Assembly: GCF_026248685.1 (NCBI RefSeq)
Contig: NZ_CP111036.1
Span: 496,001-560,000, forward strand
From: Haladaptatus caseinilyticus
GTDB taxonomy: Archaea; Halobacteriota; Halobacteria; Halobacteriales; Haladaptataceae
Length of the DNA: 64,000 bases
Direction of reading: 5' to 3'
A program made the translations under genes and the position numbers. Shown here one piece after another: positions 35,288 through 58,988 of this stretch. Under the pieces are notes generated by a model, which saw only the letters and a list, made by a program, of their open reading frames with translations, ran no database searches and had not been told where the DNA came from. How positions within the stretch are numbered: position 1 is the first letter of the stretch; the number at the start of each line of letters is the position of its first letter.

Positions 35288-36931
35288 CTACTCGACCGGC
35301 GTCACGTCGGTGACGGTACCGACGCCCTTGCTTTGGCCTTCGCGGAAGACGAATCGCTGACCTTCCTCCACGAGGTAGGGACGGAACTTGAATCGGACCG
35401 TCGTCGTCCCTTTGTCGCCTGGAAGGAGGTGGCCACCCTCGGGTTCGAAGACGGCGGTTTCGCTGACGGTTTCGAGGTGGACGACGGGTTCGTAGCCCGT
35501 TCCGATTCTCGTGGGGTGATTCAGCACCATCACTTCGGCCTCGAACTCCCGGACTGCGGTGAGGTCCGTCTCGGGCGGGACCAACACCATTCCACGCTCG
35601 ATGTCCGCTTCTCGTACTCCTTTCAGCGCGATACCGACGATTCGGCCCGCCTTCGCCTCGTCGACGCGATGGTAGTGCATCTCGATGGATCGAACGACCA
35701 CCGTTCGGAACCTGCCATCGGGCATAGGGCCGAGCAGCAGCTCATCACCCGCCTCCACCGACCCCGAGTTGATGGTTCCGCTCGCGACCGGACCGACACC
35801 CGTTACGCTATAACTACGGTCGATGTACATCCGGAACTCGCCGCTGTCCGCGGTCGTCTTCGGTAACCGTTCGAACATCGAGTCCAAGTCGTCCATCCCG
35901 TCCATCGTGACCGCGCTCGTCAGCAGAACGGGAACGACGTCCTTGCTCACCTCTTCGATGGCGACGTCGACGCCGTGGCGTCCGACCCGAAGGGGTGTCT
36001 TGCCGACCTCACGAAGCAGTCGCTCGACTTCGCGTTCGACCGCCATAGCGCGGTCCTCGTCCACCATGTCGGTCTTCGTGATGACGACGATGGTCGGCAG
36101 TTCGGTCGCCAACAGGATGCCGAGATGTTCGCGCGTCGTCTTCGTCGGACCGTCGTCCGCGGCGACGGTCAGGAGTCCATAGTCGAGTTTCTGTCCGACA
36201 AGGCCGCGAATCGTCGTCCGGAGCCACGGTTCGTGCCCCACGGTATCGACGAACGAGACGAGTCGGTCGCTCTCCTCGACGATTCGTGCGCGGTCCGACT
36301 TGCGGTGCGGATTGTCCATGTGGACCGGCCCATCCTCGTCGAATCCGTAGACTGCGTAGGAGAGATCGGCGCTGAGTCCGCGCTGGACTTCGTGGGGTTG
36401 CACGTCGAGGTACCCTCGGGTTCCGCCTTCGCCGTCGTCCGATTGGCCGGTGACGAGACTGCCGACGAGGGTGCTCTTCCCGTGGTCCACGTGGCCCGCG
36501 GTTCCGACGACGATATGCTCGCTGTCGGTTTCGAGCACCGCTCCCTCGCGAATGGTTGCGACGCCGACGATACCCCCAGCCCCGTTTCGCGTCGAGGCGC
36601 GAGTACTGGTTTCCGTAGCGTCGATTCCCCACGTCTGGACGTCCTCGATGTGTGCTCCAGCCTCCTCCGCGAGAAACGAAAGGACGTCCATCGATTCCGA
36701 AAAGAGATCGGGGTTGATTCCTGCCAGTCCCCCATCGTCAGTAACGCCGACCACGTACGTCGCCTCGCCGTTCCCCGACAGGACGCGGTGGCGTAACTGT
36801 GCGGCCAGACTTTCCATCCGCCCTTCGGCGAGGTGGATCTCCCTCGTTAGCCGTTCCTTGAACTCAACGCTACCGCCTTCCTGCTCCCCTTGGTCGAGAG
36901 CATGCTGCAAGGCGGCGCGGTCGGCGCTCAT
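35288..36931 (-). CDS. GTPBP1/HBS1-like translational GTPase
   Basis: This 547-residue protein has an N-terminal domain of about 135 residues not found in EF-Tu, containing VEFKERLTREIHLAEGRMES and VVGVTDDGGLAGINPDLFSE. A canonical GTPase follows: P-loop GTAGHVDHGKST (143-154), G3 DTVGHEP (about 228-234) and G4 TKTD. EF-Tu-like domains 2 and 3 end near the C-terminus. The layout matches archaeal GTPBP1-type proteins linked to mRNA surveillance or ribosome rescue. The start shown gives the full N-terminal domain. Confidence 0.9.
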   Translation of the reverse strand: MSADRAALQHALDQGEQEGGSVEFKERLTREIHLAEGRMESLAAQLRHRVLSGNGEATYVVGVTDDGGLAGINPDLFSESMDVLSFLAEEAGAHIEDVQTWGIDATETSTRASTRNGAGGIVGVATIREGAVLETDSEHIVVGTAGHVDHGKSTLVGSLVTGQSDDGEGGTRGYLDVQPHEVQRGLSADLSYAVYGFDEDGPVHMDNPHRKSDRARIVEESDRLVSFVDTVGHEPWLRTTIRGLVGQKLDYGLLTVAADDGPTKTTREHLGILLATELPTIVVITKTDMVDEDRAMAVEREVERLLREVGKTPLRVGRHGVDVAIEEVSKDVVPVLLTSAVTMDGMDDLDSMFERLPKTTADSGEFRMYIDRSYSVTGVGPVASGTINSGSVEAGDELLLGPMPDGRFRTVVVRSIEMHYHRVDEAKAGRIVGIALKGVREADIERGMVLVPPETDLTAVREFEAEVMVLNHPTRIGTGYEPVVHLETVSETAVFEPEGGHLLPGDKGTTTVRFKFRPYLVEEGQRFVFREGQSKGVGTVTDVTPVE

Positions 36932-50938: not shown

Positions 50939-51134
50939 ACTTTTCACAGGGACAAGCATACTCACCGCGAACGAAGTGAGCGGGCCGACGACTGAATGGA
51001 GTCCGACGGACTCGTACCGCGAGTCTGCCGTGACGAAGTGAAGGAGGAGTGCTTTTGATGAACGTTTTACAGGGAGACGGACGTGGCCAGCGCGAATCGC
51101 GCTGGCTTCGTCCCTCGACCGTGGTAAAACGTTC
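50939..51134 (-). ncRNA. Candidate structured element abutting the 3' end of cdc48
   Basis: gaacgttttac (51060-51070) pairs with gtaaaacgttc (51124-51134). Inside, gacggacg (51076-51083) nearly pairs with cgtccctc (51109-51116), and ccagcgcga (51087-51095) pairs with tcgcgctgg (51097-51105). The outer right arm ends exactly on the first base of the cdc48 stop codon. On the minus strand the sequence continues with atcaaaagcactcctcc and alternating GC-rich repeats. The pattern looks like a haloarchaeal REP-like intergenic element or a 3'-UTR structure. Whether it makes a stable RNA is not known. Confidence 0.45.
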
Positions 51135-53356
51135 TATTGGAAACCGATCCGCCCGCCCGCCTGGCGTTGCGGGCCGGACGAGCCACCCTTGAAGTCCTGT
51201 TCGATCTCCGAATAGTAATCGAGCAGGTCCTCGGTGATGGTGGCGCGCACGCTCTCCATCGCCTTGCGGAAGTGACGCATTTCGACCTCTTCGGCGTCGT
51301 CGTCCTCACGGAGGGCCTCGATTGCCGCTTCGCGGGCGATCGATTCGAGGTCACTGCCGACGTACCCGTCGGTCATCTCCGCGAGTTCACGCAGGCTCAC
51401 GTCGGGCGCGAGCGGCGTGTCCTCCGTGTGAATCTTGAGGATTTGCTCGCGGCCTTCCTCGTCGGGTTGACCGATCATGACGAGGCGGTCGAAGCGACCC
51501 GATCGGATGAGTGCCGGGTCGATCATGTCCGGACGGTTGGTCGCGCCGATGACCATCACGTCGCCCTTCTCTTCGAGGCCGTCGAGCTCCGTGAGCAGTT
51601 GGTTGACCACGCGCTCGGAGACGTTGCTCCCGACCTCCTGGCCCCGGCCGGGCGCGAGGCTGTCGAGTTCGTCGAAGAAGATGACCGTCGGGCTGACCTG
51701 CCGCGCTTTGCGGAAGGTCTGACGGATGGCCTTCTCGGACTCGCCGACCCACTTCGACAGCAGCTGCGGGCCACGCACGCTGATGAAGTTGGCGTTCGTC
51801 TCGTTGGCGACGGCTTTCGCCATGAGCGTCTTCCCGGTTCCGGGTGGTCCGTAAAGCAGGACGCCGGACGGCGGGTCTATTCCCATCCGGTCGAACTTCT
51901 CGGGCGAGGAGAGTGGCCACTCGACGCTCTCCTTGACCTGGCTCTTGGGGTCCTCGAGACCGCCGACGTCGTCCCACGAGACCTTCGGGAGTTCGACCAG
52001 CACTTCCCGCATCGCGGAGGGTTCGACCTCGTTCAGCGCACCTCTGAAGTCCTTGCGCTTGACGATCATCCGGTCGATGAGCGACGGCGGGATGGACTCC
52101 TCGTCCAAGTCGATTTCGGGCAGATACCGGCGAAGTGCCTTCATCGCGGCTTCTTTCGTCAGGCTCTCGATGTCGGCACCGACGAAGCCGTGGGTGTCGT
52201 TCGACAGCTTCGGGAGGTTCACGTCGTCAGAGAGCGGCATTCCGCGGGTGTGAATCTGGAGGATTTCCGTGCGGCCTTCCTCGTCCGGCACGCCGATTTC
52301 GATTTCGCGATCGAAACGGCCGGGGCGTCGGAGCGCCGGATCGACCGAATCGACACGGTTGGTCGCCGCGATGACGATAACCTGACCACGCGCTTCGAGG
52401 CCGTCCATCATCGTCAGCAGTTGCGCGACGACGCGGCGTTCGACCTCGCCGGTCACGTCCTCACGCTTCGGTGCGATGGAGTCGAGTTCGTCGATGAAGA
52501 TGATGGATGGCGACTCCTCGGCCGCATCCTCGAAGATTTCACGCAGTTGCTGTTCTGATTCGCCGTAGTATTTCGAGATGATTTCGGGACCGGCGATGGA
52601 GAAGAAACTCGCGCTGGTCTCGTTGGCGACGGCTTTCGCCAGCAACGTCTTCCCGGTACCCGGTGGGCCATGGAGGAGAACCCCCTGTGGCGGTTCGATA
52701 CCGAGCTTTTGGAAGATCTGCGGGTGTTTCATCGGGAGTTCGACCATCTCCCGAACGCGCTGGATTTCGTTCTGCAGACCACCGATATCTTCGTAGGTGA
52801 TCCCGCCACCGGTCTTCTCGAAGCCCGAAATCGGCTCCTCGCGGAGTTCGACTTCGGTGTCCTCGGTGATGAGGCAGACGCCCTGCGGGTCGGTTTCGAC
52901 CGCGATGAGCGGGATTGCCTGCCCGGGGGAGCGCATGAACGGGTGGTTCGTGCTCGACATGACGGGCACGATGTCGCGCTCGACCACGGGACGCTTCAGA
53001 ATCTGGCGTTTGACCATGCCTGCGGCGTCGCTTCCGAACTGGACGCTCGCCTCTTCCGGCGGCGCGAGCACCAGTTTATCGGCCTTTTCAGCCTCAGCTT
53101 TGCGGATTTCGACGCGCTCGCCGATGCCGACGTCGGCGTTTTGGCGCGTAAACCCGTCGATTCGGACTGTATCGGTGTTCCAGTCCTGGCGGTCGGCACG
53201 CCAGACTTTCGCCGCTGTCGTATCGCCGCCTTCGATTTCGATGATGTCTCCGGGGCTCAGCTTCAGATGCAATAGCGTGTCCGGGTCGAGACGGGCGATA
53301 CCGCGCCCCGAATCATTCGGATACGCTTTCGCAACCTCCAGTTGCACTTCGTTCAT
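51134..53356 (-). CDS. cdc48: Cdc48/VAT AAA+ ATPase
   Basis: This 740-residue protein starts [20 protein letters not shown]. The Cdc48 N-domain covers 1-180. D1 has Walker A GPPGTGKT (230-237) and D2 the same motif (503-510), each with a Walker B acidic pair ([11 protein letters not shown] and [11 protein letters not shown]) and sensor ATNR motifs. It unfolds proteins for proteasomal degradation. The C-terminus has no HbYX motif (it ends GGRIGFQ). It is the only such gene in the window. Confidence 0.96.
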
Positions 53357-55228: not shown

Positions 55229-55957
55229 TCACTCCTCGCGATGTTCCGCGAGTGCTTCCTCGATGGTCAACTCGCCCGCCGCTACTCGGCGGGCGAGTTG
55301 CTCGTCGATTTCCCGGTTGTCGTCGGAACGTTCACGTGAGCGACGTTTGATGACGCCGAGTTCCCCTTGCGTCGGGTCGATATCGCGCTCCTCGACGACG
55401 TCGCCCTCCAATCGCGCGATGTTGACCGCGGCGAGCACGTCACCCATGCCGCGCGCGCCGGTGCCGAGATACGGAGTCGTACCGGTTTCGTCCACGAGTT
55501 CGACCAGCACGTCTTCGAGTTCGCGGATAAGTTGTGCACCCTGCAAGCGCGCGCCGTCGCCGATTCGGACGACTGGATCGATGGCGTCTTCGATTTCTTC
55601 GCGGACGACAGCCGCGGCATCAGCGAGTGGGACGTGAAATGCTGAAACGACGAGGTCGCCCGAGAGAATCGCGATTCCGGGGCGCGTTCCGGGATCGATA
55701 CCGATGATTGTTCTTCCCGATTCCCCGCGGAGAACCGCGAGTGCCTCCTCGACGACCTTCCGGGGATGGTTCGAGTCAGCGACGATAACCGGGAGTTCCG
55801 TGTCGACATCGTCCCCCTCGGCTCGAATGCAAATCCGTGCCTGCTCCGGTAGGTCATCGCCCGGTTCGATGGTGGTAAACTGGACGCCCCTGTCGCGCAG
55901 TTCGTTTACCACGTCGTGGTACACTTCGAAATCCGCTGTCGCAACGACGACTGTCAC
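55229..55957 (-). CDS. RNase H-fold (RuvC-like) conserved archaeal protein
   Basis: This 242-residue protein starts with GTG (VTVVVATADFEVYHDVVNEL); in-frame sequence upstream is not protein-like. The central IIGIDPGTRPGIAILSGDLV (about 84-103) matches the RuvC/RNase H first strand with Asp88, and later ALRGMGDVLAAVNIARLEG-like sequence gives helices typical of Holliday resolvase-like folds. The C-terminal helix ends in ELTIEEALAEHREE. It may be a nuclease or a binding protein for DNA or RNA; activity is not proven. It diverges from radB across 86 bp, which hints at a DNA repair role. Confidence 0.75.
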   Translation of the reverse strand: MTVVVATADFEVYHDVVNELRDRGVQFTTIEPGDDLPEQARICIRAEGDDVDTELPVIVADSNHPRKVVEEALAVLRGESGRTIIGIDPGTRPGIAILSGDLVVSAFHVPLADAAAVVREEIEDAIDPVVRIGDGARLQGAQLIRELEDVLVELVDETGTTPYLGTGARGMGDVLAAVNIARLEGDVVEERDIDPTQGELGVIKRRSRERSDDNREIDEQLARRVAAGELTIEEALAEHREE

Positions 55958-56043
55958 TGCTCGGTATTGGCAGGGATAGAACAAAATCCCAACGGTCGAG
56001 CAGAAACCGGAACCTTTTGCGTGAGAAGGGCTAACGACCGGAT

Positions 56044-56742
56044 GTGACCGACGCCGAGAAACTGACGACCGGGTGCCCGCCCATGGACGACCTGCTCGGA
56101 GGAGGACTGGAACGCGGAACCGTAACACAGGTGTATGGGCCGCCCGCAGCAGGGAAAACGAACGTGGCGCTGGGAACCGCGATCGAGACCGCGCGCGATG
56201 GCGGGACGGTGGTTTACATCGACACCGAAGGACTCTCTATCGAACGATTCGAGCAAGTCGCGGAAGCGAGAGTGGACGACGTGGACGACGTCGCCTCTCG
56301 CATCGTCATCAAGGAGGCGCTCGATTTTTCGGAGCAGGAGGAGGCCGTCAAAGACGTAACCGAGTTCGCCAACCGCGCGGACCTCGTCGTCCTCGACAGC
56401 GCAACCGGATTCTACCGACTCGAACGAAGTGACGACACCAAGGGCGGCGAAGCGCTGCGTGGCGTCGCCCGACAAGTCACTCACCTCCTCTCGCTAGCGA
56501 GAAAGCACGACCTCGCCGTTCTCCTGACGAATCAGGTGTACACCGACCCGGATTCGGACGGTACCCGCCCCCTCGGCGGCCACACGCTGGAACACTGGAC
56601 CGGTGTGGTCCTCCGAGTCGACCGCTTCCGGGGAGGGAATCGCCGGGCGACTCTCGAAAAGCATCGCTCGAAACCCGCCGGGAAGCGTGCCCAGTTCCGA
56701 ATTACGGATGCCGGACTGGAAGGCGTCGAAGATATGCCGTAG
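56044..56742 (+). CDS. radB: DNA repair and recombination protein RadB
   Basis: This 232-residue protein starts with GTG at 56044 (MTDAEKLTTGCPPMDDLLGG). The P-loop GPPAAGKT (32-39), Walker B LVVLDSATG and the C-terminal DNA-binding region GHTLEHWTGVVLRVDRFRGG identify the RadA paralogue RadB, a RecA-family recombination mediator in Euryarchaeota. It lacks the N-terminal HhH domain of RadA, as expected. Confidence 0.93.
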   Translation: MTDAEKLTTGCPPMDDLLGGGLERGTVTQVYGPPAAGKTNVALGTAIETARDGGTVVYIDTEGLSIERFEQVAEARVDDVDDVASRIVIKEALDFSEQEEAVKDVTEFANRADLVVLDSATGFYRLERSDDTKGGEALRGVARQVTHLLSLARKHDLAVLLTNQVYTDPDSDGTRPLGGHTLEHWTGVVLRVDRFRGGNRRATLEKHRSKPAGKRAQFRITDAGLEGVEDMP

Positions 56743-58100: not shown

Positions 58101-58988
58101 CTAAATCCGATACAGACGTGTCGTCCAGAGCTCGCGGAACGCGTCATCCAGTGCGTCCTCCGGATCACCCGTCGCATCGACTGGTTTCGTCCGCTCTGCC
58201 TCGTTTCGAAATTCGGAAAGGAGCGTTCGTTGGCCGACGACGTACAGTCGTTCCGCCCCTCTATCTTCGATTTTCTCGCGACAGCGTTCCAAATGTTCGT
58301 CGATTTGGGCGTCCCGTCTACGCTCGAATCGGCCCTGGGAAAAGCCGCCTTTCGAGTGGTCGCTTTTCACGTCGCTCTCGAAACCCGAAATCGACTGTCG
58401 TTTCGGACCCTCGTACTCACCGATGGCGAAGAGGTCAGAGCGAACGAGTGCCAGCGCGAACGTGCCTTCGGGGCGAAACCATCCAGTATCGAGTTCGAAC
58501 CCATCTGCCCACGTGACGAACTGCTCCGGCGGATTCGGTGGGACGAGGGCGGCGCTGACGAGCCCGGCGTCGTCGGCCACTGCTAGACACGGGGATGCAC
58601 GGGCGACGAGCGAAGCGTGGTCACCGAACTCGTCTCGAACGACATCAGGGAGGTCGTCACGAACCATCGCGGTAAGTGCCCCCTCGGGGTCCGTCTCGAC
58701 CGATCGGAGGCGGGAGAGAACGCCGTCGAGCCGTTTCCCCCGAACGGTTTCGACGCCTCGGAACTCGAGGGTATCCTCGTCGCCTTGCAGCCGTTCGACT
58801 CGGTCCTCGAGTTCCTCGACTCTATCTTCGAGGCGGTTGGCTCGCTCCTCGGCTTCCTGTCGTTCGGTGACGGCCTCCGATCGGCGTTCCCGTTCGGCGT
58901 CGCGTTGTCGTTCGAGGTGGTGTTTTTCCTCTTCGAGGTCGTCGATTCGCTCCTTTAATTCCGCACGCCCGAGCAGCTCGTCCAGCAT
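58101..58988 (-). CDS. Vms1/ANKZF1-like peptidyl-tRNA hydrolase (archaeal release factor type)
   Basis: This 295-residue protein starts MLDELLGRAELKERIDDLEE. Residues 8-70 form a coiled coil rich in E, R and L. Residues 75-290 resemble the VLRF1 domain of Vms1 and eRF1-like factors, with the key KGGFSQGRFERRR (213-225), where the glutamine corresponds to the release-active position. In eukaryotes Vms1 frees nascent chains on stalled 60S ribosomes. Archaeal homologues are predicted to do so too. The gene converges with the zinc-ribbon gene. Confidence 0.75.
   Translation of the reverse strand: MLDELLGRAELKERIDDLEEEKHHLERQRDAERERRSEAVTERQEAEERANRLEDRVEELEDRVERLQGDEDTLEFRGVETVRGKRLDGVLSRLRSVETDPEGALTAMVRDDLPDVVRDEFGDHASLVARASPCLAVADDAGLVSAALVPPNPPEQFVTWADGFELDTGWFRPEGTFALALVRSDLFAIGEYEGPKRQSISGFESDVKSDHSKGGFSQGRFERRRDAQIDEHLERCREKIEDRGAERLYVVGQRTLLSEFRNEAERTKPVDATGDPEDALDDAFRELWTTRLYRI

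Follow-up and report, generated by a model that had tools for sequence, protein, structure and literature searches.

The gene at positions 58101..58988 on the minus strand of the window (the whole 64-kb stretch of Haladaptatus caseinilyticus DNA that was analysed) encodes a new member of aVLRF-1, an archaeal family of Vms1-like release factors that was named by Burroughs and Aravind in 2019 (PMC6514570) and is apparently uncharacterised. We consider it fairly probable, at about 65%, that this protein is a codon-independent release factor acting on large subunits that retain peptidyl-tRNA after the splitting of stalled ribosomes. Ribosome binding, a preference for large subunits, hydrolysis and the binding of partners are what we infer for the protein in this role.

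The window encodes an aVLRF-1 protein

The gene comprises 295 codons and a stop and is an intact open reading frame in a genome of 4.8 Mb. Its product matched the Pfam family PF18859 (acVLRF1) over residues 176-292 at 118 bits (E = 4e-34; cut-off 27.1 bits), followed by weaker matches to baeRF_family10 (1.1e-6) and eRF1_2 (0.0024). The NCBI model for acVLRF1 (NF041024) scored 30.3 bits, below its 125-bit cut-off. Because of the PF18859 score and of orthologous frames in 52 of 59 relatives, where a protein search found the gene to be usually single-copy, we regard it as a real gene and not a chance frame.

The protein begins with a long predicted helix or coiled coil (residues 2-68; 58785..58985, minus strand) bearing a conserved tip, D3-x-L5-L6-G7. 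A reduced eRF1 N-domain-like region, delimited by aRF1 profile alignment and devoid of the NIKS segment, occupies residues 78-172 (58473..58757, minus strand), and an RNase H-fold domain of the peptidyl-hydrolase type (the M domain), recognised by PF18859 and by a match to aRF1 8hku, occupies residues 175-292 (58113..58466, minus strand). The chain stops at residue 295, just past the M domain, and no Pfam match to eRF1_3, the C-terminal Pelota/L7Ae-type domain, was found. The catalytic loop and the start of a basic helix, KGGFSQGRFERRR, correspond to residues 213-225 (58314..58352, minus strand), and the codon of Q218, the presumed catalytic glutamine, lies at 58335..58337 on the same strand.

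In its passages on these families, PMC6514570 describes aVLRF-1 as archaeal, with an extended coiled coil at the N-terminus that precedes a stop-codon-binding-type domain, and as devoid of a Pelota domain. Our protein shares with the family the predicted coiled coil, the stop-codon-binding-type domain, the RNase H domain, the GGxSQ motif and the downstream arginines, and likewise has no Pelota domain; we found no difference of substance, the placement being made by sequence features. With acVLRF-1 (PF18859; NF041024) it has in common the 118-bit PF18859 match and the GGxSQ motif, but it keeps the N-domain-like region, has a coiled coil and misses the NF041024 cut-off. It belongs to the same superfamily as Vms1/ANKZF1 (eVLRF-1), with which it shares a glutamine-bearing loop and whose Vms1-60S structures match it (6r87); however, it gave no Pfam match up to E=0.1 to the zinc finger or ankyrin repeats that are features of the animal and fungal forms. 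The N and M domains of aRF1/eRF1 align with the protein, which differs from them in having neither NIKS nor a C-terminal domain and in the shift of its glutamine by two residues. Balon resembles it in its aeRF1-type N and M domains and in lacking both NIKS and GGQ proper, whereas our protein keeps the loop glutamine and has no C-terminal domain. Identity with canonical aRF1, Pelota or Balon was ruled out by motifs and domain make-up. According to the same passages of PMC6514570, the VLRF-1 proteins of bacteria and archaea stand alone, separate from the rest of the RQC components, eukaryotic VLRF-1 is nearest to bacterial bVLRF-1, and eukaryotic Vms1 is not directly derived from aVLRF-1.

A first-pass annotation, made from the sequence alone, had described the product as a Vms1-like release factor of archaea that starts with a coiled coil, and this description is borne out by PF18859, by the predicted helix at residues 2-68 and by the matches of the folded domains to eRF1/aRF1 and, more weakly, Vms1. 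Its suggestion that an archaeal version was not well described has to be withdrawn as a claim of novelty, since the aVLRF-1 family was named and described in 2019 in the sections of PMC6514570 devoted to it. A full-text literature search, with most subscription journals and preprints outside its coverage, returned no experimental work on aVLRF-1; a text search gave no paper on acVLRF1, and the literature searched yielded nothing on how archaea release nascent chains once ribosomes have stalled.

The same genome encodes a chromosomal aRF1-type protein of 416 aa, and a second one, of 358 aa with all three eRF1 domains and the sequence GGQSAQRF, is encoded on a 389-kb contig (C7; L002:1195-2271).

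Predicted structure resembles eRF1, aRF1 and Pelota

The AlphaFold2 model of the protein had a mean pLDDT of 89.6. In this model, the N-terminal helix spans residues 2-68, the catalytic loop lies between strand 196-204 and helix 218-241, and nothing follows the M domain, whose least certain part is the loop itself (block mean pLDDT 67, residues 211-220). A Foldseek search with the model matched eRF1 (8ip8, 2.1e-8), aRF1 (4af1, 1.3e-7), Balon (8v9l, 5e-6), Pelota (3wxm, 4.3e-4) and ribosome-bound Vms1 from a Vms1-60S structure (6r84, 3.6e-3).

Alignment with VIA gave Z 12.0 over 202 residues for eRF1 1dt9 at an rmsd of 14.1 Å, so the two domains are set differently, and Z 11.0 over 204 residues for Balon 8v9l at 11.8 Å. 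Closer superpositions were obtained with aRF1 8hku (Z 10.7, rmsd 2.6 Å, 112 residues) and Pelota 3wxm (Z 10.3, rmsd 2.5 Å, 102 residues). For Vms1 6r87 we obtained Z 7.1 at 4.5 Å over 154 residues, a match weaker than those of eRF1 and Pelota and at a level (Z of about 7) that is common to RNase H-fold proteins such as ParM and exopolyphosphatase. A profile alignment with archaeal aRF1 4af1 spanned both the N and M domains (E=8.2e-18), and in the profile alignments the NIKS segment is an insert in aRF1 relative to aVLRF-1.

aVLRF-1 is nearly universal in the haloarchaea sampled

Among relatives with completeness of 90% or more and contamination of 5% or less, 35 of 37 carried aVLRF-1. The protein search of the 59 relatives found no match in G012, G025, G028, G032, G044, G054 and G057. 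Two of these genomes, G012 and G032, are listed at 99% completeness, so either the gene is dispensable in some members of the group or it escaped detection in these two.

In a profile search, 175 of 295 genomes of the phylum matched at E <= 1e-5. Within the organism's own order, 71 of 72 genomes matched among those listed (G032 did not), a count that rests on a listing seemingly ordered by kinship, with 100 unmatched genomes outside it. Outside the order, 104 of 223 genomes matched, 71 of them strongly (E <= 1e-13) and 33 with weaker values between 2.7e-9 and 8.8e-6, which are possibly cross-hits to aRF1. Twenty of the 71 strong matches were fetched, and every one of them contained a loop-bearing open frame of 310-379 residues. 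A scan of species genomes with patterns that contain the loop added the best 80 of 313 confirmed stretches, all haloarchaeal by title except one (L115), which is labelled Euryarchaeota only. These genome searches covered the phylum of the organism, and the wider archaeal spread of the family is taken from PMC6514570. The near universality of aVLRF-1 in the haloarchaea sampled, some of which have tractable genetics, makes the question of archaeal large-subunit release directly testable.

The loop glutamine is conserved and displaced from the GGQ register

In the gap-free stretch of the eRF1 profile alignment, HSKGGFSQxRFER sits over HGRGGQSALRFAR, and in that of the aRF1 profile alignments it sits over KGGQSAQRFAR. 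This pairs F216 with the glutamine of GGQ, and Q218 with the alanine that comes two residues later, in eRF1, in both aRF1-type proteins of the genome and in 4af1. Despite this C-terminal shift of Q218 by two residues, the GG-x4-RF spacing is the same in aVLRF-1 and eRF1/aRF1. No alignment placed the glutamine outside the catalytic loop, the outcome that had been set beforehand as a refutation. The first-pass annotation, which had assigned this residue to the position used by Vms1 and eRF1-type factors, was right that it lies inside the catalytic loop and wrong about the eRF1 column, as the gap-free alignments put Q218 two residues past the GGQ glutamine.

Conservation was counted in sets of 50 and 20 orthologs from the protein and profile searches and in the 80 loci, whose glutamine counts are biased, as these loci were found with loop-containing patterns in genomes partly the same as the 50. 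The third residue after GG was glutamine in 50/50, 80/80 and 20/20 orthologs, and the motif GG[FYW]SQ, which reads GGFSQ in our protein, was present in equally many (the 80 being pattern-selected). NIKS and GGQSA, by contrast with aRF1, occurred in none of the 50, 80 or 20. Invariant in the 50 haloarchaeal orthologs were H211, S212, K213, G214, G215, S217, Q218, R220, F221, E222 and R223, as well as D3, L5, L6 and G7 of the N-terminal tip; R220 and R223 were thus kept in 50/50 and R225 in 49/50. In a set of 24 diverse orthologs that included ten from beyond the order, L60, H211, K213, G214, G215, S217, Q218, R220, F221, H232 and G252 were kept, R220 being invariant and R223 and R225 present in at least 90%.

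Q218 fits GGxSQ exactly, the motif given for aVLRF-1/acVLRF-1 in section 2.3 of PMC6514570. For the bVLRF and eukaryotic families, that source gives the motif GxuQ, which it argues does the same job as GGxSQ. Because the presumed catalytic glutamine is displaced by two residues, aVLRF-1 also allows the requirements of the GGQ geometry to be tested cleanly.

Neighbouring genes

The window also holds Cdc48 (51134-53356), 4.7 kb from the aVLRF-1 gene, and a GTPBP1-like GTPase of the EF-Tu type (35288-36931), 21 kb away. From the presence of all three genes inside 64 kb, one could read them as a single archaeal quality-control neighbourhood, the context put forward in the first-pass annotation. 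Comparison of flanks to 8 kb argued against it: a relative of the GTPase was found in 0/80 named haloarchaeal loci (its 21-kb distance in the window lies beyond the flanks compared), a Cdc48-like AAA protein in 1/80 (43% identity, at the edge of the locus) and Cdc48 in 0/5 named Haladaptatus loci. Synteny with Cdc48 and GTPBP1 is therefore unconserved when compared to 8 kb, and we hold such a local module to be highly improbable. The other window neighbours (thrB, DUF5815, a zinc ribbon and others) stood beside aVLRF-1 in only 5 to 9 of the 80 named loci, those of Haladaptatus and a few near relatives. The gene for NFACT (Rqc2/NEMF) lies about 210 kb from aVLRF-1 in this genome; because all 119 of the phylum genomes tested have NFACT, finding it here is not informative, and it shows no co-variation with aVLRF-1.

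More widely shared neighbours were found among the 80 named loci. In 60 of them (among L082-L161), DUF5802 was encoded no more than 1.5 kb upstream, on the strand of aVLRF-1; DUF1611 lay downstream on that strand in 53, at up to 3.7 kb, and GatD upstream at 2.4-7.8 kb in 32. In the present genome, DUF5802 lies about 190 kb from aVLRF-1. The model of this small protein (pLDDT 82.6) resembles a fold that we take to be the double-psi barrel. Its best matches were p97 N-domains (Foldseek E 4.6e-3; VIA Z 7.7, 2.3 Å over 77 residues), RNA polymerase barrels tied with them (Z 7.0-7.4), and no match reached E 0.001. Given this tie and the lack of any E under 0.001, we do not claim DUF5802 as a Cdc48 homolog.

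A gene for an FtsJ-type methyltransferase (FtsJ-TRAM) followed aVLRF-1 on the same strand in 10/10 fetched loci of one family of the phylum (f19; L162-L165, L172-L174, L176, L177 and L179), which probably consists of Methanosarcina relatives; in 8 of the 10, a DUF7109 gene was recognised between the two. Neither the 10 remaining distant loci nor the 80 named haloarchaeal ones showed an FtsJ gene near aVLRF-1. In E. coli, the target of methylation by FtsJ/RlmE is the A loop of 23S rRNA, which is also the place where a release factor would be expected to act.

Proposed function

In the mechanism that we propose, the RNase H-fold domain would enter the A site and the basic helix, with R220, R223 and R225, would grip the rRNA of the large subunit. 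The GGxSQ loop would then reach the peptidyl-transferase centre, where Q218 would take part in breaking the peptidyl-tRNA ester, and the long N-terminal helix with its D-x-L-L-G tip would probably dock to the subunit or to a partner. With the NIKS segment lost and no C-terminal Pelota/L7Ae domain present, we expect the protein neither to read stop codons nor to be delivered by a GTPase in the usual way; judged by its motifs, termination at stop codons by aVLRF-1 is unlikely. The simplest reading, and to us the best, is that aVLRF-1 releases chains from split large subunits independently of any codon.

The same substrate could be handled by other chemistry, with the 3' CCA end of the peptidyl-tRNA being cut instead of the ester being hydrolysed. 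Vms1/ANKZF1 is called an endonuclease that cleaves the CCA tail in the part of a 2026 review that deals with it (PMC12868832), and the offset of the aVLRF-1 glutamine from GGQ leaves room for altered chemistry. However, Burroughs and Aravind argued for hydrolysis from the motifs (PMC6514570, section 2.3), and the GG pair, a serine and the glutamine are kept in the orthologs counted, which makes CCA cleavage unlikely in our judgement; one arginine is said in the same source to be specific to eVLRF-1. The protein might instead sit in the A site of idle ribosomes as a plug or hibernation factor, releasing no peptide, as its structural matches to Balon (8v9l; Foldseek 5e-6, Z 11.0) and its want of both NIKS and GGQ proper, which Balon shares, would allow. 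Potential Balon homologs, picked by the absence of NIKS and GGQ, are reported in 30% of Methanosarcinia in the relevant part of PMC13324472. A silent plug is nevertheless at odds with the retention of the loop glutamine, found in every ortholog counted, because families thought silent lose this residue according to the passages of PMC6514570 on them. aVLRF-1 also has no C-terminal domain of the kind that Balon uses to engage EF-Tu, as described in PMC10901736 where it treats that contact, and we regard a Balon-like role as decidedly unlikely. As a separate observation, the potential archaeal Balon set is described in that part of PMC13324472 as chosen by the absence of NIKS and GGQ together with a separate lineage, and aVLRF-1 would have the first of these properties.

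A VLRF-like loop in COG2433/DUF460 proteins

The genome also encodes a COG2433/DUF460 protein (C1:848267-850297; L004:1093-3123) whose N-terminal part contains a VLRF-like loop. PF18859 matched this protein weakly, at 25.6 bits, below the 27.1 cut-off. Used as a query, the protein found matches in 117 of 119 genomes of the phylum, and 95 of these matches covered the N-terminal part. We compared the loop in 50 sequences, made up of 30 loci given by the search and 20 picked from the rest. GG was present in 50/50, the second residue after it was serine in 43, and the third was glutamine in 38, glutamate in 10, alanine in 1 and serine in 1, so that most loops read GG-W-S-Q/E-x-R-F/Y. Glutamine was present in 28/28 sequences from outside the order, and the 22 haloarchaeal ones had glutamine in 10, glutamate in 10, alanine in 1 and serine in 1.

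PF18859 matched 15 of 18 COG2433 members at E <= 0.01, with a best value of 9.9e-6; the single bit score available, 24.9, falls short of the cut-off. Profile comparison of COG2433 with aVLRF-1 gave 91.7% over 58 columns; the probability was 0.8% against the aRF1 profile, and the comparison with the unrelated DUF5802 gave 0.1%. Given the 0.8% against aRF1, the resemblance is to the VLRF loop only, and it may have arisen by convergence of a short loop sequence. Among solved structures, the best match to the COG2433 N-terminal region had E 0.079, and the matches, mostly retroviral integrases, were taken as chance-level. The part of PMC3985635 concerned with COG2433 reports an RNase H-like domain as the only one found and takes the protein length to suggest others. 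No link between COG2433/DUF460 and release factors was found in the titles or abstract openings of the literature searched.

It is conceivable, and in our view improbable, that large-subunit rescue in the phylum has two arms built on the GGxSQ loop. One arm would be aVLRF-1 beside NFACT/Rqc2 and, in most haloarchaeal loci examined, DUF5802, a small protein whose predicted structure recalls the double-psi barrel of the Cdc48/p97 N-domain. COG2433/DUF460 would form the second arm, its unannotated N-terminal region bearing a VLRF-like loop next to a RuvC/Tex-like nuclease domain; the loop glutamine is replaced by glutamate, alanine or serine in some haloarchaea, perhaps because aVLRF-1 performs release there. 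If real, the COG2433 lead would mean that a conserved archaeal protein of unknown function carries a loop like that of release factors, and this lead may matter more than the identification of aVLRF-1 itself. In the window, a minus-strand open reading frame at 55229-56128 gave a weak match to DUF460 (E=0.0026) and is possibly a short RuvC-like relative of COG2433.
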